DNA of 21,156 nucleotides from positions 1-21,156 of the forward strand of contig JAEOUI010000009.1 in NCBI GenBank assembly GCA_016839425.1, in the 5' to 3' direction. Shown piece after piece: positions 6,710 through 21,156 of the stretch; position 1 is the stretch's first letter, and each line of letters starts with the position of its first letter. Both the position numbers and the translations under genes were made by a program. Source of the stretch: Promethearchaeota archaeon. Lineage in GTDB: Archaea; Asgardarchaeota; Lokiarchaeia; Sigynarchaeales; SOKP01. The notes beneath the pieces are model-generated. The model saw nothing but the letters and a program-made list of their open reading frames with translations, did not search any database and had not been told where the DNA came from.

Positions 6710-9700
6710 ATGCCTTTATTTGATATTTACGAAGAATTTAATAATCCACTTGGATCGCTTTTTTCTAATAACTTAAAATGGACCTTTTTAGTTGGTGCGG
6801 GCGCTTCAATGGATCCTCCATCTAATTTACCTTCTGCAAGAACTATTAGTCAAGTTCTTTTGAAATTATGTGCTCCAGAAGAAGAAGTAGAAAAATTAAT
6901 TTCTTTAGCTGCTTTAAGGTATGAGCTTATCGTCGAAGCGATTCAGCAGCAAACAGATAGAGAATTAATCTTCATGGATTATTTCGATGAAGTGGTAGAA
7001 CCAAATTTCATTCACATCTTTTTAGCAAGTGTCATTCAAGCGAAAAATCATGTAGTAACTACGAATTTTGATTATTTGATAGAAAGGGGCTTAATGCGAG
7101 TCTTGCCAGAAAAAGAAACGCAATATATTTATCCAATTATTACCAAGAATGATTTTTTAGAGCATCAAGATCCAGAACTCTTGATCAAAAAGGGAATGTA
7201 TCCCCTCTATAAGATTCACGGCTCAAAAACAAATATCATTACAAAAGAACAAACGATTGAATCGCTCGTTACAACGATATCTGACCTTGGAAAAGATAGA
7301 GAAAGTGGAGAAACATTCGCCATTGAACCGTATAAAAAACCGCTTGTTAATAACATTATGAGGGAGCGTTCACTCGTGGTTTTAGGATATTCTGGAAGCG
7401 ACGATTTCGATATAGGGCCCGTGTTAAAAGAAGTACCCTTCCTCGAGCGATTGATTTGGATCGATCACGCTAACACTGATAGAATAGAAATTAAAAAGAT
7501 AAAAAAAATAGTGGATTTAAGCGATTTAAAACACTTGTCAAAAACCGAGCAATTGCTTTTAGAAATACGCTCAGATGTTAATTTTAATGTTTATTTGATA
7601 CGAGCACCTACTGGGCGATTATTCCAAGAAATTTGGGATCTTATAATGCCTAATGAAGAAAAAATCTATCCTAAAAATATTGACGAGATTGATAAACCAA
7701 CCAAATTTAATGTATGGGCAAAAAACCTATACGGACAGATCGATAAAAAGAGTAAGTATCAATTAGCAGCAAAGTTATATACTGAATTGAACCAGTTCAG
7801 AGATGCCATCGAATGCGCAAAAAAGGGCTTGGATTCGTGCAAGATGGGAACTGAAAAAGAGGATACATACGCTATCGCCTATTTTTATGGCATTATTGGT
7901 AACGCTGCAAGTAATTTGGGAGAAATCGAAATGTCTCTTGAATATCACAACAAATCACTTGCCATTGATGAAAAGACCGGCGATAAAGACGGAACAATTG
8001 CGAGTTTGAGCGGAATCGGTTACATATATTATACTTTAGCACAATACGATAAAGCGTTCGATATTTTTAAGAAGGCATACGAAATTGCGATCGAGGAAAA
8101 CCTAGCAAGAAGAATATATACTATTAGCACGAATTTAGGAATGATTTACAAGGAATGGGGCGAATTTGATAAAGCTATGGAATATTTTAAGATTGGACTC
8201 CAACACGCAGAGAAAGAAGGAATGTTAAACGGAAAAGCCACTGTATACAGTAATATTGGCACGATTTATAAAATTCAAAAACAATATAAAAAGGCCTTGG
8301 ATAATTACATCTTAGCTCTTGAAATTAACAAGCAATTAGGGTATCTCAAGGGCATATCTGCTCGATTAAGTAATATTGGAGAAATATATCACATGGAGGA
8401 TAAAAATGATCTTGCCATACAATATTTCAATGAAGCCTTAGCAATTGACGAGGAAATAGGGAACATTGTTAATAAAGATAAGGTAATGGGCAACATTGCC
8501 CAGGTTTACCGTGCAAATAAGGAATACGATAAAGCCCTGGCAATATACGAAGAAACGCTCAGGATAGCAGAAAAGCTCAATCAGCAAAAATCTATATCGA
8601 TAAGATTAAACAACATTGCGATGATCTATAAAGAAATGAACGAATTAGATAAAGCTCTCGAATATTCGCAACGAGCTCTAGAAATGGATCTTTCTATCAA
8701 TTACAAACCTGGTATTGCAATTGATTACAATAATTTAGGCGCAATATACTATAAAATGGAAGATTACGATAATGCTCTTAAATATTACGCTCAATCTCTT
8801 GATCTAAACGAAAAAATGGGAAACGAAGAAATTAAGGAAATAAACTTAGTTAATATTCGCGACACTTACGAAGAACTGGGAAAAATTAGGCGTGATGAGG
8901 GGAACTTTTCAGAAGCAGTTTCTTATTATCAAAAAAGTCTTGAAATTACGCAAAATATGAATGATTTGGCAAATCAAGCTTTTTATTTGCACGCAATAGG
9001 AAAAACTTATTATTTTAACGATGTAAACGATACTGCTTTAGAATACTTCCAAAAAAGCCTTGAAATTGAACAAGAAATCAATAACAGGCAGGGAATATTA
9101 GATGCATATTATTACATTGCAGAAGTTCATAAAGAAGAGAATGAAACTCAATTAGCTGTTGAGTTTTATAAAAAATCTCTTGATATTGCTTATGAATTAG
9201 AAAACGAGGAAGATCAAGTACTTTTATTAGAAAAACTTGCCACGATTAGCTTTTCGCTTGGCAATAAAGAGGATATAATTGTATATAATGAACAATTAAT
9301 TCCTTTCTATCGAAAAGAAGGAAGATTAAAGGATATTGGAGAGATATATTCTGGGTTGGGTAATATATATGCCGAATTTGGACAACGAGAACGAGCCATT
9401 GAAGTTTTAAAAGAATCATTAGAAATTTCAAAGCAATTAGATTCAAAACAATTTATTGGAAACGCTTCTTATGGATTGGGATATATTTTTGAAAAAAACA
9501 AGGAATACAAGAAGGCCTTACCTTATTATCAAGAATCTGTAAAAATGGCATCACTTTTAGGAGATATGCCTCAAAAGAGCGCTCGTCTCAATCGTGTAGG
9601 ATTGATCCAGAAACATTTGGGTAATTATTCAAAATCAATTAAAGCGTTCGAGGAAAGTATTTCAATCTCGAGCGATTTAGGTAATGAGACAACTCTTGCT

Positions 9701-9862
9701 CATCGATACAATGCACTTGCAGGTGTTTATTTACGGGCCAAGGAATACGAAAAATCCATTTCGAATTACACGATATCGCTTAATTTGTTTAAAAAAACTG
9801 GGCAAAAAAAAAACGCTGAAATCATTTCAAACAACATTGAAAATGTCAAAAAAAAAATGTAA
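6710..9862 (+). CDS. SIR2-domain protein with about 17 TPR repeats
   Basis: 1050 residues. The SIR2-like domain shows GAGAS at 29-33, TTNFD at 117-121, KIHG with His170, and GYSGSDD at 226-232, so all candidate NAD-binding and catalytic positions are present. From about residue 350 to 1040 there are roughly 17 TPR units, mostly of 40 residues; one near 690-740 is enlarged to about 47 residues by an inserted GKIRRDEG-like segment. The SIR2 half is clearly paralogous to the 44-2929 gene (shared EEEV, LRYELIVE, PLYKIHG-type blocks), while the TPR halves are much more diverged. Family knowledge and inference are the same as for that gene: a TPR sensor linked to a possible NAD+-depleting effector. 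The gene ends one base before the convergent HD gene. No partner gene of a known SIR2 defence system (HerA, ThsB, Argonaute) is adjacent. Confidence 0.85.
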   Translation: MPLFDIYEEFNNPLGSLFSNNLKWTFLVGAGASMDPPSNLPSARTISQVLLKLCAPEEEVEKLISLAALRYELIVEAIQQQTDRELIFMDYFDEVVEPNFIHIFLASVIQAKNHVVTTNFDYLIERGLMRVLPEKETQYIYPIITKNDFLEHQDPELLIKKGMYPLYKIHGSKTNIITKEQTIESLVTTISDLGKDRESGETFAIEPYKKPLVNNIMRERSLVVLGYSGSDDFDIGPVLKEVPFLERLIWIDHANTDRIEIKKIKKIVDLSDLKHLSKTEQLLLEIRSDVNFNVYLIRAPTGRLFQEIWDLIMPNEEKIYPKNIDEIDKPTKFNVWAKNLYGQIDKKSKYQLAAKLYTELNQFRDAIECAKKGLDSCKMGTEKEDTYAIAYFYGIIGNAASNLGEIEMSLEYHNKSLAIDEKTGDKDGTIASLSGIGYIYYTLAQYDKAFDIFKKAYEIAIEENLARRIYTISTNLGMIYKEWGEFDKAMEYFKIGLQHAEKEGMLNGKATVYSNIGTIYKIQKQYKKALDNYILALEINKQLGYLKGISARLSNIGEIYHMEDKNDLAIQYFNEALAIDEEIGNIVNKDKVMGNIAQVYRANKEYDKALAIYEETLRIAEKLNQQKSISIRLNNIAMIYKEMNELDKALEYSQRALEMDLSINYKPGIAIDYNNLGAIYYKMEDYDNALKYYAQSLDLNEKMGNEEIKEINLVNIRDTYEELGKIRRDEGNFSEAVSYYQKSLEITQNMNDLANQAFYLHAIGKTYYFNDVNDTALEYFQKSLEIEQEINNRQGILDAYYYIAEVHKEENETQLAVEFYKKSLDIAYELENEEDQVLLLEKLATISFSLGNKEDIIVYNEQLIPFYRKEGRLKDIGEIYSGLGNIYAEFGQRERAIEVLKESLEISKQLDSKQFIGNASYGLGYIFEKNKEYKKALPYYQESVKMASLLGDMPQKSARLNRVGLIQKHLGNYSKSIKAFEESISISSDLGNETTLAHRYNALAGVYLRAKEYEKSISNYTISLNLFKKTGQKKNAEIISNNIENVKKKM

Positions 9863-12765: not shown

Positions 12766-13037
12766 TTCTCTTGATTCCTACAATTTTTTCTTTTATCTAA
12801 GTCGAACAAAACCTTACAACTATTTAACTTTATTTCTTTTAAAAACTCAATTATAATATCTCACAAACTAAGTAATAAAGTAGATCAAAAAATAAATTTT
12901 TTAGGTTAATAGCACGAATTTTAAAAATTAACTATCATAATTTTTTCAAATGGACTTAAATATTTCTAATGTAATGATAGGATGCAATCCTATTGTCGGT
13001 CATTCACGAGCATTTAATGAATTCCCTCATTCGTCCA
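12766..13037. other. Intergenic region between the selenoprotein operon and PAN
   Basis: This 272-base AT-rich gap holds the 3' end of the leftward operon, including the conserved stem-loop at 12962-13007, and the PAN promoter region. A TATA-like AAAGTTAAATAG (minus strand, about 12820-12832) lies about 60 bases before the PAN start. I see no further open reading frame with coding character. Confidence 0.5.
12962..13007 (-). promoter_or_regulatory. Candidate archaeal SECIS stem-loop, element 1
   Basis: In the mRNA sense this reads GUGAA, a short spacer, then AUAGGAU-UGC-AUCCUAU (perfect 7-bp stem, plus-strand 12977-12993), then CAUU and ...UUAGAAA. AAUG just after GUGA can pair with CAUU after the stem. 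It begins 30 bases after the TAA at 13038. The core GGAUUGCAUCC and the flanking GUGAA recur in element 2 behind the paralogous gene. Archaeal SECIS elements usually sit in the 3' untranslated region, as this does. I do not see the full GAA/A internal loop of the Methanococcus consensus, so the identity is tentative. Confidence 0.5.
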
Positions 13038-13511
13038 TTACTGTTTATTAAAATAATGCCGAAAGCATTCTTTTGAAGGATCAAATTTCTTTCGCAGGAT
13101 TGTTTTAAATCTCCCAATATCTAATCGATTTTTCACCTTTTGTCATCAACACCCTGCATCCTGTTGTAATTCAATAACGCTATCAGGATATAAGTTAAAA
13201 AATATGTTTTCACCAATGGGATTAAATTTTCTCATTAAACCGTCCTCGTTAGGTGCATACGGAGAAACACCCACATCTTCGTAAATTACTTCTTCTTCAA
13301 GATTTACGAACAATTGGAGGTAATTGTGAATGTAACCATCGTGAATGGGAAAAATCGATTCGGATGGATTATCTTGCGTGAATTTATCCACCATTGCTAA
13401 GGCTTCTATGAAGTTAGCATTATCGTCAAGCTCAAGAACAAAGGTCTTCCCTGCTTGCAAATCCTTTATAGGCATGCTTATTTTAAATGTTATTGTTTTA
13501 ATTTTTTTCAT
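13038..13511 (-). CDS. Candidate selenoprotein with Cys-Sec-Sec motif, paralogue 1
   Basis: Conventional reading stops at the TGA at 13146-13148 (121 residues). The same frame continues through a second TGA (13143-13145) for 34 further codons to TAA at 13038, giving 157 residues with Cys121-Sec122-Sec123. Downstream residues (NRLDIGRFKT, LRKKF, EC-x-x-HYF) match the paralogue upstream without gaps, and many codon differences are silent (CGA/AGA, TTT/TTC, AAA/AAG). That is evidence the region is translated. Residues 1-118 look beta-rich, possibly a beta-grasp or ubiquitin-like fold (VLELDDNANFIEALAMVDKF, YLQLFVN), ending near where MoaD-like proteins end. The function is unknown; vicinal selenols suggest binding or reduction of a thiophilic metal(loid). 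It is the last gene of the operon. ATG 13511 was chosen; GTG at 13514 is also possible. Confidence 0.72.
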
Positions 13512-13528
13512 CACCTTTTATATTATTA

Positions 13529-13569
13529 TTTCAATACGCTAGGGATGCTATCCCTGATCCGTTTTTCAC
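13529..13569 (-). promoter_or_regulatory. Candidate archaeal SECIS stem-loop, element 2
   Basis: In the mRNA sense: GUGAAAAACG, GAUC, AGGGAU-AGC-AUCCCU (perfect 6-bp stem with a 3-nt loop, plus-strand 13541-13555), AG, CGUAUUGAAA. The bases ACG and CGU can close an outer helix, leaving an asymmetric internal loop. GUGA on the 5' side and UGA on the 3' side could form tandem G-A pairs like those of kink-turn SECIS elements. It begins 20 bases after the final TGA at 13589 and matches element 1 in core and spacing. An alternative role is as a leader hairpin or operator for the next gene, whose start lies 15 bases further on. Confidence 0.5.
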
Positions 13570-13588
13570 TAAAATTTTTTGAAAAACA

Positions 13589-14086
13589 TCATTCCACGCT
13601 TTCAAGATAATTTTTTTTTCCGAAATAATGAACATAGCATTCATTGTCCTTACCAAACAGTTTTCGTAATGTTGTCTTGAATGTCCCATAATCGATTCTA
13701 TTAGCTCCATTTCCTCATCACCCTCAAGCCGAAGAAGTTAATGAAATTTCGCAATCGTCGTGTAAGTTAAAATCCAACCTTTTTTGTATTGGCATCACTC
13801 CTTTAGCACTTGCAGCAAAAACATTTATATCGGAATAAATTTCGTTTTCGATTGGATTCCAAAATAATTGTAAATAACACTTAACATAGCTATTTTGGTT
13901 GTGATCGATAAAATGGGATTCCTTCGGATGTTCAAATGCGTATTTATCCACCATTGCTAGAGCTTCGCTAAAGATGGCATCGTCTTTGACTTGAACAATA
14001 AATTCTTTATTCACGCTGATTCCTTTTATTGGAACCCTTAATTGAAATGTTACTTTCTTAATAATATCACTCTCTTTGTTTTGCAA
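13589..14086 (-). CDS. Candidate selenoprotein with Sec-Gly-Sec-Sec motif, paralogue 2
   Basis: Conventional reading ends at TGA 13724-13726 after 120 residues. Continuing in the same frame gives TGA-GGG-TGA-TGA (Sec121, Gly122, Sec123, Sec124) and then 41 codons to TGA at 13589, 165 residues in total. Sec123-Sec124 align exactly with the two TGA codons of paralogue 1, and the following NRIDYGTFKT, LRKLF, EC-x-x-HYF aligns without gaps. No ATG, GTG or TTG exists in this frame between the TGA codons and the conserved stretch, so separate initiation is unlikely. The N-terminal part parallels paralogue 1 (EALAMVDKY, YLQLFWN, a final strand DDCEISL). The start is TTG at 14086, 13 bases after the thioredoxin-like gene; no better start was found. 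The final TGA is taken as a true stop because the paralogue ends nearby. Confidence 0.72.
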
Positions 14087-14099
14087 TTGGCTTATAAAA

Positions 14100-14531
14100 T
14101 TACAATAGCCCCTTTTCGGTAAGAAGAAGGGGCAAATCTTGTTTTAATTCATATGATGTTGAATAAATCTTTTTCCCATCAACCACGATCGAGTTTCCTC
14201 GTAAGTTCAATTTCTTTGCTTCGTCCGAACTTAGTGATTTTGTCTCGTGTATTATATATTTAATATATGGTGTTAATGCTGTAAATACTAGATTCATAAA
14301 TTGGGACCACACACAAGAGCACGCTTCTAACGGCACGTATATATCCACCTTTAATTTATCTTTTGGAATGTTCTGAATAATTATGGGGGTTTTCGATTTC
14401 AGACTAATTTCTGTATCGTTTTGAGGCGAGCAACAGCAAGGTGCCTCTTGTTCGGGGGGGCAATATGTCTTCATATCTATATTAGTGTTCATATCATCGT
14501 CACTTGTTTTTTCTTTCTTATTTACATTCAT
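14100..14531 (-). CDS. Thioredoxin-like CxC protein (SaoT-like)
   Basis: 143 residues. Residues about 60-143 form a compact thioredoxin-like domain: a first strand KVDIYVPLEA, then the redox-site position Cys71-Ser-Cys73 (CxC rather than CxxC), a helix, TKSLSSDEAKKLNL, a strand SIVVDGKK, and a C-terminal helix. The N-terminal 50 residues are extra and hold Cys24 and a Cys32-Cys33-Cys34 triplet, which look like a soft-metal ligand tail. From memory this domain resembles the family named thioredoxin-like (seleno)protein SaoT, whose members can carry Sec in this motif; I could not check that. Its likely role is thiol/selenol exchange with the adjacent selenoproteins. The start ATG at 14531 has GAGGAT 7 bases upstream. 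It lies 21 bases after the ferredoxin gene. Confidence 0.72.
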   Translation of the reverse strand: MNVNKKEKTSDDDMNTNIDMKTYCPPEQEAPCCCSPQNDTEISLKSKTPIIIQNIPKDKLKVDIYVPLEACSCVWSQFMNLVFTALTPYIKYIIHETKSLSSDEAKKLNLRGNSIVVDGKKIYSTSYELKQDLPLLLTEKGLL

Positions 14532-14552: not shown

Positions 14553-14855
14553 TTAACAACAACTCAAATTATCTTTACCTTTATTTTTTACCCTACCTCT
14601 TGCATCCCATAAGCAACCACATCCTTTTTGTTCTTGCATGATTATAGCTTGAGAAGGACAATTTATTTGACACGCACTGCATTGCACGCATAGTTTAGGT
14701 CGATTTACTTCAAATATGCCCCTTAAATTCTTAGTTGGTAAGCCAAATGGACATACTTCCTTGCAAGTACCACATCCACTGCATTTTGTTTCGTCTATCC
14801 AAACATTCAGAGCATCCCTTGGCAAATTATTGCAACAACTTTTTTCTATTGTCAT
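14553..14855 (-). CDS. hgcB: HgcB-like 2[4Fe-4S] ferredoxin with terminal vicinal cysteines
   Basis: 100 residues. Two complete cluster motifs, C25-x2-C-x2-C31-x3-C35-P and C56-x2-C-x2-C62-x3-C66-P, bind two [4Fe-4S] clusters. Extra cysteines are C7-C8, C79 and C81 (GCGC), and the C-terminal pair C99-C100. HgcB, which donates electrons to the corrinoid protein HgcA in microbial mercury methylation, has this size, a lone conserved Cys after the second cluster and a C-terminal CC pair, and lies directly downstream of hgcA, as here. The N-terminal CC is additional. It may therefore reduce the corrinoid of the upstream fusion and hand over or accept a thiophilic metal through its tail. The start ATG at 14855 has AAAGGT upstream. 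A generic ferredoxin is the alternative, less likely given the context. Confidence 0.78.
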   Translation of the reverse strand: MTIEKSCCNNLPRDALNVWIDETKCSGCGTCKEVCPFGLPTKNLRGIFEVNRPKLCVQCSACQINCPSQAIIMQEQKGCGCLWDARGRVKNKGKDNLSCC

Positions 14856-14891
14856 ATTTATACCTTTTATTTTCAGTTTTTCCTACTATCT

Positions 14892-16574
14892 TTAATAAAA
14901 ATATATTCCTATTGTTAAAAAAATTAAACTACTAATTAGTATAAACTTGTTTAATTTAGTAAACAAGGGATATTCAGCTTGAATTTCTTTTGGATTTGTA
15001 GCCATTGTATATCCACTGAAAGACATTGTAGAAAAAAAACCAAGCCAAAATTGAAAGCCTAGCATCAACAATATAGCTAGATTAAAACCGTGTATTAAAT
15101 ACGAGATTATCCCTAGCATTAGTAGGCTTAAAATTCCGAAAAAATAACCCTTGTAAATAAACTTTCTCGAAAAAGCGGATAATGGAAAGAATGTACTTAT
15201 CAATCCATTTACGATGATTATCCATAACGCTATTTCAGCAAAAATTAACGATTTATAAATCCAAAATTGCCCGAATGGAACCGAAAGAACCAAAAATATC
15301 AAAAAAAATGCGACCATTGGAAAAAGAAAGATCTTTCGAAATAAAAAAGATGTATGTGTTACATAGGCACGCATTCTATGAGAAAAATTGAACTTGATAA
15401 CGCTCATTTTCTCGGATTTTTCCTTCGTGTCGGACTTGAGGTATTCAGGCAAGGTGCTGGACCAAACGGGACCATATTTCACCCGAAATCTGAAGTTATC
15501 TTCTTTTTTAGGTAAATTTGGAATTGAAACTCCTCCAGCTGCGAGTTGGGGCAAAATCAAGGTTTTGTTTTCTGCAATATCTTGAATCCCCGTGGCTTCG
15601 ACGGCTTCAAGAAGTTGTTGATTTCCAAAATCACTACCACGAGCGGCGCACCAAACATTTATGCCATTTGAATCCACACATAGGATCCACGCGTCAAATC
15701 TCTTGAGGTGCCTTAATAATTTGATGTAAGTATAATCATAATTAGCCGTCACGAGAATCGGGGAATTTTTAGATGGGTTTCCAGATCGATAAATGCCAGG
15801 TTCGATCGGGATTCTATCGACTTGACCTGTCAATAAACACCTTAATATTCTTAGGTAGCTTTTAAAACCCTTATGGCTCTTTTGTTCAGGTATATAATAA
15901 CCTGGCACTTGAGATTGCCATTGATCGCTCTTTTTTAGTTCTAGCGCTTGAATTGCTCCGTGTTTCCATTGTTTTTGAGAAACAATCGTATATCCAATTG
16001 GTTCGATATATTGAAAAAACCATTTAAGTACTTGAGTTTGGTGAAGTCTTTGTCGTTTGAGCTTTTTTTTATATCGCCATCGTTTTATTTTAAACGGTAT
16101 TTTCCAAAATCCTGGTGGTAAAAATTCAGCTGATAATAAAAGTCTTCCTTCAGGTTTCAAGGCTTCCCAAGCTTTTCTTAGAAAAATTTGTTGTTCTAGT
16201 GGACGAAGTTCAGACAGCATGAAAGTAGATATTATTATATCTTTTGAATTTGCTTCCAAGAGAAAGTCGGAAAATGTTCCAATTTGATATAGTAGGTTTA
16301 TATCATCTCCTGTCGGATAGTTTGTCATTGCGTGACTTATCATCTTGTAATCTTTATCGATTGCAACTATATTGTTTCCTTTTAAGGCAATTTTCGAAGC
16401 TAAGGTGCCCGTTCCACAACCCACTTCTAGGATGGATTCTGAAGGGCCTATTTTATTTAGAATCCAGTCATTTACTTCGAGATTTACGCCTTTTGTGAGA
16501 GTTGTAAAATTATCGTCGTAAGTTTCGGGCTCTTCTTCTAGTTTGCGCATGTAAACAACTGCCGTTTCTTTCAC
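14892..16574 (-). CDS. SAM methyltransferase fused to HgcA-like corrinoid membrane protein
   Basis: 560 residues in three parts. (1) Residues about 15-215 are a class I SAM-dependent methyltransferase with motif I LEVGCGTG (49-56), acidic VAIDKD (70-75) and an LKPEGRLLLSAE motif (139-150). (2) Residues about 258-380 match HgcA: PGIYRSGNP, SPILVTANYD, DAWILCVDSNGINVWCAARG (294-313) and LPQLAAGGV. The cap-helix motif, usually N(V/I)WCA(A/G)GK, is NVWCAARG here; Cys309, the cobalt ligand in HgcA, is kept while GK becomes RG. (3) Residues about 412-560 contain five membrane helices, as in HgcA. Inference: a corrinoid methyl carrier anchored in the membrane with its own methyltransferase. I recall a RefSeq family CpaM (corrinoid protein-associated methyltransferase) but could not verify it. 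The start is GTG at 16574 (16 bases after the DUF166 gene) or ATG at 16550. Confidence 0.85.
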   Translation of the reverse strand: MKETAVVYMRKLEEEPETYDDNFTTLTKGVNLEVNDWILNKIGPSESILEVGCGTGTLASKIALKGNNIVAIDKDYKMISHAMTNYPTGDDINLLYQIGTFSDFLLEANSKDIIISTFMLSELRPLEQQIFLRKAWEALKPEGRLLLSAEFLPPGFWKIPFKIKRWRYKKKLKRQRLHQTQVLKWFFQYIEPIGYTIVSQKQWKHGAIQALELKKSDQWQSQVPGYYIPEQKSHKGFKSYLRILRCLLTGQVDRIPIEPGIYRSGNPSKNSPILVTANYDYTYIKLLRHLKRFDAWILCVDSNGINVWCAARGSDFGNQQLLEAVEATGIQDIAENKTLILPQLAAGGVSIPNLPKKEDNFRFRVKYGPVWSSTLPEYLKSDTKEKSEKMSVIKFNFSHRMRAYVTHTSFLFRKIFLFPMVAFFLIFLVLSVPFGQFWIYKSLIFAEIALWIIIVNGLISTFFPLSAFSRKFIYKGYFFGILSLLMLGIISYLIHGFNLAILLMLGFQFWLGFFSTMSFSGYTMATNPKEIQAEYPLFTKLNKFILISSLIFLTIGIYFY

Positions 16575-16590
16575 CCTTCACTCATATTTT

Positions 16591-17295
16591 TTAAGAAGTT
16601 CTGCTATTATATTCTTCTTGTATCGATAGAAAAAAGTCCTTAAGCTCGCTAGATAATGTTGTGGTTTTTATGGCATCGTAAAGTGAAAGTAAATGAATGA
16701 TACCAGCAACTTCCTTATCACAGGTTCGACCAAATCGGGGTGCTCTGCATTCGTGACATACTGCCAAGGCAAAATCGCGCAAATTATTATCATTTAAGGT
16801 CTTACCCTTAATAAATCGTGCTCCTGCTTCAGATGATCCGCATAAAGAAATTCTATCGACATCAACATCTAATACTTTTAATTCCTCGTTAATTTTTATA
16901 TGATACCGAGGTTTTCCAAAATAGGTCGCAAATTCGTCTATCTCGCTGATTCCCGTGTTATTCTCCAGAGAGCACATGGTTCTTGCGTGAATTACATGTG
17001 GGTTAATTGATTTTGCTTGCTCGTACAATCCATTACCTGGAAGAATACCTAAAATTAATGGTTTTCCAAGTTCCACTAGTTGCAAAATTATGTCTGGATG
17101 TCTAACATAGGAGATATAAAAGTCGCAATCGGGGATTTCGATATCGATTGGATCGTCTAACATCACGGTCTCTGGAATTTCTGGGACCAATATCCAATAT
17201 ACTTCAAAGCGTTCGTGTATGTTGTCAAAGGCTCTGTTACCGTATTTACCGTCTGAAACTAAACCAATATGAATTGAATTTTGAATGTATATCAC
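16591..17295 (-). CDS. DUF166-like protein, first gene of the operon
   Basis: 234 residues. The opening IGLVSDGKYGNRAFDNI, the middle DCDFYISYVRHPDIILQLVE, the MCSLE motif around Cys108 followed by IDEFATYFGKPRYHI, and RISLCGSSEAGARFI (Cys152) match my recollection of DUF166, an archaeal and anaerobe family once labelled thymidylate-synthase-like with no proven reaction. Near the C-terminus lies C180-H-E-C183 with C192, a plausible metal or cluster site. It is soluble, with no signal peptide. It begins with GTG at 17295 (no nearby ATG) and is divergent from the ArsR gene, 16 bases ahead of the methyltransferase-HgcA fusion. Its place at the head of a corrinoid operon suggests a part in corrinoid, C1 or metal handling, but this is inference. 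Confidence 0.65.
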   Translation of the reverse strand: MIYIQNSIHIGLVSDGKYGNRAFDNIHERFEVYWILVPEIPETVMLDDPIDIEIPDCDFYISYVRHPDIILQLVELGKPLILGILPGNGLYEQAKSINPHVIHARTMCSLENNTGISEIDEFATYFGKPRYHIKINEELKVLDVDVDRISLCGSSEAGARFIKGKTLNDNNLRDFALAVCHECRAPRFGRTCDKEVAGIIHLLSLYDAIKTTTLSSELKDFFLSIQEEYNSRTS

Positions 17296-17464: not shown

Positions 17465-17854
17465 ATGGACCTCGTGAGAGAAAACGAAATCAAGGAGATA
17501 ATGAAATGTTGTTGGGGCGATTGCTGTGAAAAGTCCATTTTTGAAGATTTACAGGCATACGGTTTGGAACTTAAAAAAAGTCAAGCATTCGCTCAAATAT
17601 TAGAATTTCTAAATGCTCTTGCAAGTAAAGATCGCTTGATGATAGTAAAAACCCTGAAAGAAAGAGGAGAACAGTGCGTTTGTGAATTGGAGGCCATCTT
17701 GGACAAGTCGCAACCATCAATCTCACATCATTTGAGGCATTTAGAAAGAGTGGGCCTTATAAGGGGGTGGAAAAAGGGAAAATTCACATATTATGTCCTT
17801 ATGGAAAACGAATATAAAAAATATTTAGAATTATTTCTAAAAGAATTGAAGTAA
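17465..17854 (+). CDS. ArsR/SmtB-family metal(loid)-responsive repressor
   Basis: 129 residues with a winged helix-turn-helix: LNALASKDRLMIVKTL, then CVCELEAILDKSQPSISHHLRHLERVGLI, then the wing GWKKGKFTYYVL. Cys71-Val-Cys73-Glu-Leu matches the ELCVCDL metal site of ArsR repressors, which bind As(III) or Sb(III) in helix alpha-3. The N-terminus adds two vicinal pairs, C15-C16 and C20-C21 (CCWGDCC), which could supply further thiolates for a soft metal such as Hg, Cd or Bi. In this family metal binding releases DNA and derepresses the operon. It is divergent from the DUF166/HgcA-like operon and probably regulates both sides. Start ATG 17465 has GGTGA 9 bases upstream. The stop lies 12 bases from the convergent chemoreceptor-like gene. 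Confidence 0.87.
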   Translation: MDLVRENEIKEIMKCCWGDCCEKSIFEDLQAYGLELKKSQAFAQILEFLNALASKDRLMIVKTLKERGEQCVCELEAILDKSQPSISHHLRHLERVGLIRGWKKGKFTYYVLMENEYKKYLELFLKELK

Positions 17855-17866
17855 AAAAATTATTTT

Positions 17867-18778
17867 TTAAGGACTTTTTTTCTTCTGAATTCCCGAGCCA
17901 GAACTTTTACTTGAGAACTTGACATTTTGAGATAGCGCTTCTTTTAAAGCGTACGCTTCTTGGCCAAGCTGAGCCGCTGTAGCGGATATTTCCTCCATGG
18001 ATGCCGTTTGCTCTTCGGTGGCCGTGCTGATCTCTTCCATTCCTCTAGACATTTCCACGCTATCCATGGAGGCGCTCATGATGTTTTTCGTAATGAAATC
18101 CACGATTTCTCCCGTACGCTCGACCGAACTTTTAGATTCTTCGGCGAGCTTTTGAACCCTTTCGGCGACCACGGCAAATCCCCTGCCGTGCTCTCCTGCC
18201 CTGCCAGCTTCAATGCTGGCGTTTAGCGCAAGCAGGTTGGTTTGCTCAGAAAGGTTAGTTATGAGCTTTACGATGTTCTTGATCTGCTCGGTCATCTTGT
18301 TTACTTCCAAGAGCGTCGATTCCTGATTTGACGCTTTTCGTGCGATCTCGACCGTTGTTGCGGATATTTCCTCGGCAGAGGCATTTACCTCGTTTGCGCT
18401 AGCTGCTAACGCTGTTGCGCTTTCAGAAAGCCTTTGGGATGTTTGTTCGCTTTGATTTAGCACTTTTTCTATCTGTTTAGTCTTGGATTGTATTAACTTT
18501 TTTTGTGTTAATAGTTTCTTTAATATATAATAATTAGAAAAAAGAACAGGAGCTATTAGAATAATCGCTAAAATTAAATATAATGCAGCATTTTTCCGCG
18601 TTTCTGGATCTCCCGATAATGGAGATAATTCTACTGCTATAAAAAATGTCAGAGTAAGTAAAAATAGAATTTTAAATTCTAAAGATTTCCACTTGAGTTT
18701 AAAAAAAAATGTGAAAAACAATATAATGATTATCGTTGCGATTGGTGGTATTAAATAACTAATTAGGGTTTCAGACAT
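17867..18778 (-). CDS. Methyl-accepting chemotaxis-like protein, array copy 1
   Basis: 303 residues. The N-terminal 90 residues hold three hydrophobic helices (about 8-27, 35-52, 65-88) with only short loops, so there is no external ligand domain. I see no HAMP domain; a charged helix (about 89-115) leads straight into the signalling coiled coil. The hairpin tip ([39 protein letters not shown], about 183-221) is canonical apart from IEAGRAGE in place of IEAARAGE. Such proteins dock CheA and CheW; neither gene is in this window. Seen in the sequence: the signalling half is almost identical to its neighbours, while the membrane part differs. The gap to copy 2 is only 39 bases, so it is probably co-transcribed. 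The sensed cue may be membrane state or a partner protein. Confidence 0.85.
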
Positions 18779-18817
18779 TTCATATTGACCTTATATTATT
18801 TGAAAACATTATTAATA

Positions 18818-19747
18818 TTATTTTTTAAGAAACTTCTTTTTCTGAATTCCCGAGCCAGAACTTTTACTTGAGAACTTGACATTTTGAGATAGCGCTTCTT
18901 TTAGAGCGTAGGCTTCTTGTCCAAGTTGGGCCGCCGTTGCCGATATTTCTTCCATGGATGCCGTTTGCTCTTCGGTGGCCGTGCTGATTTCCTCCATTCC
19001 TCTAGACATTTCCACGCTATCCATGGAGGCACTCATGATGTTTTTCGTGATGAAATCCACTATCTCTCCCGTGCGCTCGACCGAGCTCTTGGATTCTTCT
19101 GCGAGCTTTTGAACCCTTTCGGCAACCACGGCAAATCCCCTGCCGTGCTCTCCTGCCCTTCCGGCTTCGATGCTGGCGTTTAACGCAAGCAAGTTGGTTT
19201 GCTCTGAAAGGTTAGTAATGAGCTTGACGATGTTCCTGATTTGCTCGGTCATCTTGTTTACTTCCAAGAGCGTGGACTCTTGATTTGACGCCTTTCGGGC
19301 AATTTCGACCGTTGTTGCGGATATCTCCTCGGCAGATGCGTTCACCTCGTTTGCGCTGGCTGCTAATGCCGTTGCGCTTTCGGAAAGCCGTTGGGACGCT
19401 TGCTCGCTGGCGTCAATCACGCTTTCCATCTTACTCGTTTTTAATTGAATACCTCTCTTCTGAGAAATTAATTTTCTAGTAATATAATATTGCGAAAATA
19501 CGACGGGAATTGCAATTATAAACCCACCAAGAGCATATATTCCAATATTTCCTGAATATTCTGGATCTGAGGTTAATATCGCTCCATCTATAGCAACTAG
19601 TGCTGTTAACGATATTAAGGCTAAATTTTTAAATTCAAGTGAATTCCACTTGAGCTTGTAAGCGAATTTAAAAATGAACATGTAAATCATCATGGAAATT
19701 GGAGTTAATGTCAATCGTACTATATTAAAAACTGGATCTATATCCAT
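18818..19747 (-). CDS. Methyl-accepting chemotaxis-like protein, array copy 2
   Basis: I start it at ATG 19747 (309 residues), because AAGGATAG lies 4-11 bases upstream. The frame opens five codons earlier at TTG 19762, which has no such signal. The N-terminal helices are about 5-29, 37-54 and 63-86, with the [10 protein letters not shown] motif between the first two shared in near-identical form with the other copies. The anchor-to-signalling linker ends in [10 protein letters not shown]. The signalling half differs from copy 1 by only a few residues (for example EQIRN for EQIKN). The C-terminal tail is [14 protein letters not shown]. Like its neighbours it lacks an extracellular sensor and HAMP domain. 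It has a clear promoter upstream. Confidence 0.85.
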
Positions 19748-19810
19748 TTTTCTATCCTTCAATTATTTTTTTGTTTTTAAATGTATTTTTTAATTACTTA
19801 TAAAAACAAG

Positions 19811-19820
19811 TTTATATAAA
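19811..19820 (-). promoter_or_regulatory. TATA box of chemoreceptor copy 2
   Basis: TTTATATAAA (palindromic, so identical on both strands) lies about 64 bases upstream of the ATG at 19747 in the minus sense. This predicts a start site near 19787 and a leader of about 40 bases that holds the AAGGATAG ribosome binding site. It would drive copy 2 and probably copy 1. Confidence 0.5.
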
Positions 19821-19980
19821 TTATCTGTATTTTTTTAATAAGCATTAATTTCATTACTATCGATTTCAAATCAAATAAATAAGTTACATTATCAATTTGA
19901 AGAAATTAAGATTATAATTTACACAAAATATAGCTCAATATCAATAAAGTAAAAATAAAGATATTATTTGGATAAATTTA

Positions 19981-20901
19981 TTATTTCTTGAAAAGCTTTT
20001 TTTTCTGAATCCCGGACCCAGAACTTTTAATGTCTTGAGAGAGCGCCTCTTTTAGAGCATACGCTTCTTGCCCGAGTTGAGCCGCCGTTGCCGATATTTC
20101 TTCCATGGATGCCGTTTGCTCTTCGGTGGCCGTGCTGATTTCTTCCATTCCTCTCGACATCTCCACGCTATCCATGGAGGCGCTCATTATGTTTTTCGTG
20201 ATGAAATCTACTATCTCTCCCGTGCGCTCGACCGAACTCTTGGATTCTTCTGCGAGCTTTTGAACCCTTTCGGCAACCACGGCAAATCCCCTGCCGTGCT
20301 CTCCCGCCCTTCCGGCTTCGATGCTGGCGTTTAATGCTAAGAGATTAGTTTGCTCGGAAAGGTTGGTAATGAGCTTGACGATGTTCCTGATTTGCTCGGT
20401 CATCTTATTTACTTCTAAGAGCGTGGACTCTTGATTCGAAGCTTTTCGAGCAATCTCCACCGTCGTTGCGGAGATCTCCTCGGCAGAAGCGTTCACCTCG
20501 TTTGCGCTTGCAGCTAAGGCAGTGGCGCTTTCAGAAAGCCTTTGTGAGGCTTGTTCGCTGGCATCTATAACATTCGCCATTTTTTGAGTTCTAACATAAA
20601 TGGTTTTTTTTTGCTTTAATTGGCTATTCAAGATATAATATTCACCGAGTATGATAGGGATGAAGATGACTAAGGTTAATAAGCCATTAATAATAGACCC
20701 CTCATTAGTGAAGATATCTCCAAACAATAGCAGGACATCTATCATAACCATACACAGTAAAAAATTTATCAAAGCAAGCGTTTTGAATTCAAGAGATTTC
20801 AATTTAAGCTTGAAAACAAATTTAAACACTAGAAGTAAAATTAAATATACAATTGGTGTCAAGATTAAAGTTAATATATTAGTAGCCTGATCATAAGCCA
20901 T
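19981..20901 (-). CDS. Methyl-accepting chemotaxis-like protein, array copy 3
   Basis: 306 residues, ATG at 20901 with GAGGATGG about 8 bases upstream. Three membrane helices (about 10-30, 41-61, 69-92) are joined by short loops, and the [10 protein letters not shown] motif follows helix 1. The signalling half has the same tip sequence as copies 1 and 2. Its tail is shorter: [20 protein letters not shown] in place of [21 protein letters not shown] 218-base AT-rich spacer separates it from copy 2, and it has its own TATA-like element, so it is a separate transcription unit. Confidence 0.85.
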
Positions 20902-20950
20902 TATTTTTCCATCCTCTTCTTTTTGTCTTATTTTAACGGTCTTTTATTTT

Positions 20951-20958
20951 ATTTAAAT
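20951..20958 (-). promoter_or_regulatory. Candidate TATA box of chemoreceptor copy 3
   Basis: TTTAAATA in the minus sense lies about 50 bases before the ATG at 20901, in the 77-base gap after the fourth array copy. The predicted leader is about 25-30 bases and includes GAGGATGG. Confidence 0.4.
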
Positions 20959-20978
20959 AATTTTTTAAGATAAATTTA

Positions 20979-21156
20979 TTATTTCTTGAAAATTTTTTTT
21001 TTCTGAATTCCAGAACCAGTTTTATTTTCCGAAGTCTTGATGTCCTGAGATAGTGCTTCTTTTAGAGCGTAGGCTTCTTGTCCAAGTTGAGCCGCCGTTG
21101 CCGATATTTCTTCCATGGATGCCGTTTGCTCTTCGGTGGCCGTGCTGATTTCCTCC
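20979..21156 (-). CDS. Methyl-accepting chemotaxis-like protein, array copy 4 (partial, cut by window edge)
   Basis: Only the last 58 codons are present. They encode the end of the signalling domain ([19 protein letters not shown], then [18 protein letters not shown]) and a tail ending [13 protein letters not shown] before TAA at 20979. The nucleotide sequence from about 21060 to the window end is almost identical to the same part of copies 2 and 3. The tail holds a small insertion (SENK-like) compared with copy 3. The array therefore has at least four members and continues to the right of the window. Confidence 0.82.
   Translation of the reverse strand, partial: EEISTATEEQTASMEEISATAAQLGQEAYALKEALSQDIKTSENKTGSGIQKKKIFKK

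Follow-up and report, generated by a model that had tools for sequence, protein, structure and literature searches.

The window analyzed here is a stretch of 21,156 nucleotides from a Promethearchaeota archaeon of the Lokiarchaeia (GenBank assembly GCA_016839425.1, contig JAEOUI010000009.1, positions 1 to 21,156). It contains two paralogous genes on the minus strand whose reading frames run through adjacent UGA codons. Both genes belong to a conserved Asgard protein family, here termed the UU family, in which these codons are very likely decoded as neighboring selenocysteine (Sec, U) residues, and it appears nearly certain that the products are selenoproteins with vicinal Sec. We conclude on Sec-Sec decoding because the UGA pair is kept in all relatives read, the tail behind it is under selection, an element resembling a selenocysteine insertion sequence (SECIS) follows each gene, and Sec machinery is present in the genomes of relatives. 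A preliminary description of the window, which had proposed recoding of TGA as Sec from the sequence alone, is supported.

Paralogous reading frames and invariance of the UGA pair

13038..13514, minus strand: copy 1, predicted selenoprotein gene, 158 amino acids with U at TGA-TGA; GTG start at 13514 as listed, ATG at 13511 directly after; TAA stop at 13040-13038
13143..13148, minus strand: TGA-TGA pair of copy 1 (13148-13143), context A-G-C-U-U
13589..14086, minus strand: copy 2, paralogue of copy 1 and likewise a predicted selenoprotein gene, three Sec predicted (A-U-G-U-U); listed start TTG; probable stop TGA at 13591-13589
13715..13726, minus strand: site of the three Sec codons predicted in copy 2, TGA-GGG-TGA-TGA (first TGA 13726-13724, pair 13720-13715)

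The frame of copy 1 reads ...QQDAGC-TGA-TGA-QKVKNRLDIGRFKT...HYFNKQ-TAA and that of copy 2 reads ...TSSA-TGA-G-TGA-TGA-GNGANRIDYGTFKT...HYFGKKNYLESVE-TGA. The preliminary description had claimed a paralogous pair with TGA-TGA in register and a conserved downstream peptide, and this was borne out. The read-through proteins shared 68 identities in 156 columns (44%, E = 4e-40), and the tails behind the pair aligned without gaps, 17 of 34 residues being identical; none of 100,000 shuffles reached 17 (maximum 10). From the NR motif onward, the proportions of synonymous (pS) and nonsynonymous (pN) differences between the two tails were 0.62 and 0.31, respectively. The claim that the tail of copy 2 lacks a start codon also held, as no ATG, GTG, or TTG occurs until a GTG two codons before its end. 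The count of two Sec in copy 1 and three in copy 2 was right as well, with a fourth in-frame TGA of copy 2 (13591-13589), absent from that description, taken as the likely stop rather than as Sec. Its reading as Sec was rejected; it sits in the SECIS core, and the sequence read beyond it is the SECIS itself.

GTDB contigs were scanned with two motifs taken from upstream of the pair, hence without selection for the pair itself. This yielded 42 loci, every one titled Lokiarchaeota or Lokiarchaeia, among them the closest relative, L001 (79% identical). After removal of L038 and L039, whose sequence ends ahead of the motif, TGA-TGA was found in all 40 loci reaching the site; none had Cys, Trp, TAA, or TAG. 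When 227 Asgard genomes were searched by profile, 62 gave matches, in 81 rows. The site is spanned by 76 rows, each with two or three TGA codons; four of the others are cut short and one was taken as spurious. Of these places, 20 further loci were read, ten distant ones included, and all 20 carried TGA-TGA. Homologues with TAA or TAG, as envisaged in the preliminary description, were thus looked for and not found in 40 + 20 loci, nor were homologues with Cys or Trp. Invariance was judged from these counts (40 of 40 loci, 76 spanning rows, 20 of 20 further loci); a count of 64 of 64 was set aside because the regular expression behind it itself requires the pair.

Annotated proteins gave a corresponding picture. 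A homology search with the segment before the pair returned 88 proteins, 80 ending at the motif and 8 read through as W-W. A second search, with the full alignment, matched 378 proteins, the best 120 of which were examined. Among the 139 distinct proteins from both searches (window's own included; best 120 of 378 in the second), 113 end at the motif, 26 show W-W, and none has C-C at the pair position. Cys homologues are common in selenoprotein families and not required. Three motif classes were distinguished: GC-UU, AD-UU, and A-U-G-U-U, the last consisting of copy 2 and copies in L001, L002, and L017. An extra in-frame TGA was seen in the tail of L013 (LDIUNFK) and L094 (KKULDFG) where relatives carry Gly or Arg; this may be an error of sequencing, or the position may be free and tolerate Sec.

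Selection on the tail was evident from the ratio of nonsynonymous to synonymous substitution rates (dN/dS). A value near 1 downstream of the pair, named in the preliminary description as evidence to the contrary, did not occur: compared with L001, the tail of copy 1 gave pS 0.57, pN 0.13, and dN/dS 0.13, and that of copy 2 gave pS 0.70, pN 0.17, and dN/dS 0.10, with synonymous changes near saturation in both cases. Over 282 pairs of GCUU genes of moderate divergence, the median tail pN/pS was 0.41 (dN/dS 0.28), and upstream of the pair pN/pS was also 0.41.

SECIS-like elements and selenocysteine machinery

12957..13036, minus strand: SECIS-like element of copy 1 plus second conserved hairpin, directly 3' of the stop; covariance model 54.1 bits, E = 4e-10
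13520..13598, minus strand: SECIS-like element of copy 2; covariance model 59.2 bits, E = 2.8e-11; AUGA at 13592-13589 contains the likely stop TGA

The covariance model was trained on 3' regions of relatives, the window being excluded, and gave two clear matches in the window, one per gene; the next match had an E-value of 0.15. These E-values are rough, and the model includes the L001 counterpart of the copy 2 element, not that of the copy 1 element. The core of both window elements is the eukaryote-like AUGA...GA, and two model pairs of the copy 1 element are non-standard. Behind most UU genes, the consensus comprised AUGA, a stem (nUCUUUCA/UGAAAGAn), an A-rich loop, and GA or AA, and AUGA overlapped the stop UGA in 12 of 64 genes. 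An ad hoc SECIS score, devised after the pattern had been noticed, was at least 7.4 for 51 of 64 UU genes versus 7 of 398 control 3' ends.

Covariation was analyzed in 44 aligned elements (alignment A3, window excluded), 10 of 54 candidates having been dropped: seven from distant loci, the near-duplicates L008 and L037, and a wrong pick in L022. In this alignment 92.3% of cells pair, compared with 43-51% in a slid-partner control, and 42 double changes were counted versus 12.5 in shuffles. Four of five covariation measures were reached by none of 500 shuffles; the fifth, the number of further pair types, was reached by 40. Directly 3' of the SECIS lies a second conserved, covarying hairpin (AUAGGA...UCCUAU, A3 columns 45-61; 89.8% of cells paired).

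Asgard SECIS elements are described as 3', eukaryote-like, and type I, with an AUGA_GA or AUGA_AA core and an A-rich apical loop, and in Lokiarchaeia the stop UGA may overlap the AUGA (PMC11227280). As far as the accessible text of that paper goes, the elements of the window family agree with this description, overlap included; the second hairpin does not appear in that part of its SECIS account. When the energy limit of the type I model of Huang et al. 2024 is left aside (5'-GA_[G/A]A-3' core, upper stem of 7-15 bp with ≤2 mismatches, apical loop of 8-20 nt), both elements fit it. That of copy 2 has a 9-bp upper stem with 0 mismatches and an 11-nt A-rich loop, and that of copy 1 has 10 bp with 2 mismatches and a 9-nt loop. 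Energy folding of the 3' regions gave weak z-scores of -0.7 to -1.6, and therefore the SECIS would not have been detected from energy alone. An Rfam scan of the window returned no match at the gathering score.

On six whole genomes, the model produced 27 matches at E ≤ 1, several of which were UU genes; in G004 a match lies 222 bases 3' of a TGA-containing selD match. Among 14 further match loci, L120 has the element behind a two-Sec frame that we take to be FrhD, and L119 has it behind a frame presumably like HdrA, the TGA of which lies outside the displayed part, whereas no TGA-bearing frame accompanies the matches in L115, L117, and L122. Matches in L112:1065-1494, L124, and L125 follow short frames that contain TGA in frame (e.g. 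TSAIUGTGGSD), and these may be further unlisted selenoproteins.

Absence of Sec machinery from the complete genome had been named in the preliminary description as evidence to the contrary; in the genomes of relatives, the machinery is present. It was sought in the 37 genomes carrying the first 42 loci, in a set of 7, in the 227 Asgard genomes, and in 14 controls. SepSecS (PF05889) was over the cut-off in 36 of 37 genomes and above 300 bits in 35; the cut-off is loose and was also passed by 4 of 14 controls. With TIGR03531, Methanocaldococcus jannaschii alone matched among the controls, and 57 of 61 family-bearing versus 73 of 166 other Asgard genomes were over the cut-off (Fisher p = 1.2e-12 on manually assigned counts, G055 dropped); the four family-bearing genomes below it are G121, G037, G158, and G023. 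PSTK-like genes scored 125-173 bits in 34 of 37 genomes, all under the curated cut-off, with weak matches in 9 of 14 controls. The tRNA-Sec search matched all 14 controls (5 over the cut-off), so that only the two over-cut-off matches among the 7 genomes were used, both directly ahead of a SepSecS gene. SelD with an in-frame TGA was found in 5 of 7 genomes tried, and SelB exceeded 230 bits in 6 of 7 and the cut-off in 2. In G001, a single contig of 2.27 Mb, tRNA-Sec, SepSecS, and TGA-containing SelD were present, and the SelB match was not clear. A tRNA scan of the window detected none.

Decoding of TGA as Trp or by general suppression is most improbable. Some public gene callers do write W-W (26 of the 139 proteins, best 120 of 378 in the second search), and of the 18 other open reading frames in the window just 1 ends in TGA; however, TGA ends 16 of 190 neighboring genes, the pair is TGA in 40 of 40 loci and never TGG although 40 TGG codons are used in those 18 reading frames, and the covarying SECIS-like element together with SepSecS in relatives' genomes speaks for Sec. 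Termination at the first TGA, as annotated in 113 of 139 database entries (same limit), with an independent or decayed frame in place of the tail, is extremely unlikely, given a tail conserved at dN/dS 0.10-0.13 versus L001 (median 0.28 over 282 pairs), the missing early start codon in copy 2, and the absence of drift from TGA to TAA or TAG in 40 + 20 loci. A TGA = Trp code, plain termination, and pseudogene tails were thus rejected on the TGA stops of neighbors, the invariant TGA, the conserved tail, and the SECIS.

Gene neighborhood

14100..14531, minus strand: TrxCAC, Cys-rich protein encoded immediately upstream of the UU genes; predicted thioredoxin-fold domain bearing a conserved CxC where helix 1 starts
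14553..14855, minus strand: HgcB-like 2x[4Fe-4S] ferredoxin ending in CC (NF040864, E = 4e-12, 45.8 bits, under the cut-off of 99)
14892..16574, minus strand: fusion of a CpaM-like methyltransferase with an HgcA-like corrinoid domain (NF043040, E = 9.7e-35; NF040863, E = 1e-48; both under curated cut-offs)
16591..17295, minus strand: DUF166 protein, head of the likely operon (PF02593, E = 6.3e-31)
17465..17854, plus strand: ArsR-family regulator, divergently oriented and containing CC and CVC motifs (PF01022, E = 4.9e-15)

The operon had been noted earlier as rich in thiol metal-binding motifs. This can now be made specific as an ars-type neighborhood with HgcA/HgcB-like genes. The window reached 166.2 of 275 bits for HgcA and 45.8 of 99 bits for HgcB, below the curated NCBIfam cut-offs, and the products are therefore called HgcA- and HgcB-like.

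In many relatives, TrxCAC or the arsenite permease ACR3 precedes the UU gene, frequently accompanied by CpaM-HgcA- and HgcB-like genes, and the near family mostly sits with ars genes. Among the families searched, TrxCAC was the most frequent nearest upstream gene; the HgcB-like ferredoxin occurred in 19 of 43 near loci, and some loci (e.g. L021 and L032) have the order ArsR-ACR3-UU without TrxCAC. The CpaM-HgcA-like fusion and the HgcB-like ferredoxin, found in the window at 14553-16574, lie beside ACR3 in the Lokiarchaeal or Asgard operons of L005, L018, L026, L034, L035, L040, and L099. Through such operons, arsenic (or mercury) could possibly be methylated by a corrinoid pathway. In L011:421-1539, an ArsM arsenite methyltransferase (over the cut-off) is fused to a TrxCAC domain ahead of the UU gene. 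Genes for aldehyde ferredoxin oxidoreductase (AOR), ferredoxin, or ThiS flank the UU genes in L085, L091, L093, L098, L006, L010, L019, and L026. A PDB sequence search with the TrxCAC profile returned no match at E ≤ 5. The arsenic metallochaperone ArsD was absent from the 50 fold-comparison rows listed for TrxCAC, which excludes nothing, and copies 1 and 2 and TrxCAC gave no ArsD match in Pfam at E ≤ 1.

Proximity of hgcAB to acr3, arsC, arsM, and arsR is already known (PMC7438021, PMC10349881). The accessible parts of these papers name no selenoprotein in such neighborhoods; here, in Lokiarchaeota, the HgcA-like part forms a fusion with a CpaM-like methyltransferase. No paper treating HgcA together with CpaM was found in the open-access literature.

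Predicted fold and proposed function

The UU protein is predicted to form a beta-grasp domain carrying Sec-Sec where MoaD, SAMP, and Urm1 carry Gly-Gly. In the predicted model, the pair is located at the end of the last strand and is followed by a helical tail of ~35 residues. The UU proteins would share with the MoaD, ThiS, SAMP1, and Urm1 carriers the fold and functional residues ending the last strand, and differ in having GCUU, ADUU, or UGUU plus a tail, not Gly-Gly. No family match linked them. Foldseek found nothing for the model at E ≤ 0.001, and a PDB sequence search with the UU profile found nothing at E ≤ 10. None of the known Asgard selenoprotein families was matched: in Pfam at E ≤ 1, copies 1 and 2 each hit a single different family, below the cut-off (YjjI-like, 0.048; Glyco_trans_A_1, 0.055), and NCBIfam at E ≤ 0.01, searched with copy 1 only, gave none.

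The preliminary description did not recognize the family, and among the open-access matches listed (titles and abstract starts) no report of it was found. The accessible text of the Asgard survey lists SelD, FrhA, HdrA, FrhD, Prx-like, AhpF-N-like, and DsbA-like selenoproteins (PMC11227280); decoding by a 3' eukaryote-like SECIS is alike, and the UU family is none of these seven. HdrA, Prx, and MvhD are named for two lineages in the accessible part of PMC9723677. Table 1 of a 2026 review of the prokaryotic selenoproteome (PMC13188914) counts 119 families. As accessible, it contains metal- or metalloid-linked selenoproteins (HgcA, HgcB, SaoC, SaoL, MbdU, and ArsM forms), several with a CU motif, and no row with a UU motif or MoaD-like family; since a motif is missing from some of the rows, the UU family may be identical with one of them. 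New-selenoprotein searches, as described in the available text, lean on Cys relatives (PMC13188914, PMC11227280). Because the Asgard survey began from known families and checked Cys homologues, the all-Sec UU family, in which we saw none, could escape it.

We propose the following mechanism. The adjacent UGA codons, with the third in copy 2, would be decoded as neighboring Sec through the RNA element just behind the stop, by Sec-tRNA, SelB, and SepSecS as judged from the genes of relatives. The Sec-Sec pair may bind arsenite or a methylated arsenical and hand it over to export or methylation. Gene order suggests that the upstream TrxCAC could hold the selenols in reduced form or take part in metalloid exchange, and that ACR3 export and the CpaM-HgcA/HgcB-like corrinoid system may be further partners. 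Three soft ligands, a number suited to As(III), would be available from C-U-U in the main class or from U-G-U-U in copy 2, against only two in the A-D-U-U class. A metalloid carrier fits because a selenol pair with a nearby Cys or third Sec is encoded ahead of an arsenite pump and beside a CxC protein. ArsD likewise combines vicinal soft ligands with an ars operon; it uses Cys, and the likeness is one of role only.

We consider it reasonably probable that this combined explanation, a Sec-Sec family decoded with a 3' RNA element whose pair carries an arsenical to export or methylation, is correct, and we infer with some confidence a role in the handling of arsenic or a like thiophilic element. 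That the protein is a carrier rather than a redox enzyme falls slightly short of an even chance. The most far-reaching version is speculative: a selenium-based arsenic carrier, the first family defined by obligatory Sec-Sec without a Cys form, with a MoaD/ubiquitin-like fold whose Gly-Gly tail is replaced by a diselenol trap (triselenol in copy 2), acting in an Asgard pathway of arsenic methylation and export alongside ACR3 and the CpaM-HgcA/HgcB-like corrinoid system.

The main rival is a redox function of the same selenoprotein, which is possible, if doubtful. Here the selenol/diselenide couple would work with the CxC of TrxCAC and with ferredoxin in reducing arsenate, pentavalent methylarsenicals, peroxides, or the corrinoid protein. 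The frequency of the predicted thioredoxin-fold protein as nearest upstream gene, the presence of an HgcB-like ferredoxin at 19 of 43 near loci, and the ferredoxin and AOR genes by L085, L091, and L093 are consistent with this, as is the expectation, in the accessible text of PMC13188914, that most uncharacterized selenoproteins are redox in function. However, beta-grasp is not a usual redox fold, ArsR-ACR3-UU stands without TrxCAC in some loci (e.g. L021 and L032), and an efflux pump needs a ligand and not an electron donor. Improbable is a sulfur or selenium carrier derived from MoaD/ThiS/Urm1 that serves tungsten-pterin (AOR) enzymes or another cofactor, the ars genes having joined later. 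The predicted fold, with the pair where these carriers end, would agree with it, as would the AOR genes flanking L006, L010, L019, L026, L085, L091, and L093 and the order ferredoxin-ThiS-UU in L098; yet the Gly-Gly terminus is missing and a tail of ~35 residues stands instead, Pfam gave no ThiS match at E ≤ 1, profile comparison with the ThiS protein of L098 gave a probability of 2.8%, and the near family lies mostly beside ars genes.

The consecutive UGA codons are never swapped for a Cys codon in the genes read, which raises the question of which chemistry depends on vicinal selenols; given the ars and HgcA-like context, arsenic or a similar metalloid offers a testable answer. An all-Sec family proved detectable from tail conservation and SECIS alone. 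In addition, the archaeal relatives of eukaryotes here supply a compact, covarying set of eukaryote-like SECIS, which a second conserved hairpin follows.

Elsewhere in the window, at least three consecutive genes (17867-21156) have near-identical C-terminal halves, of methyl-accepting-chemotaxis type by eye, and differing N-terminal membrane parts. Two large proteins (44-2929 and 6710-9862) have, by eye, a SIR2-like start and many TPR-like repeats and are perhaps defense-related.
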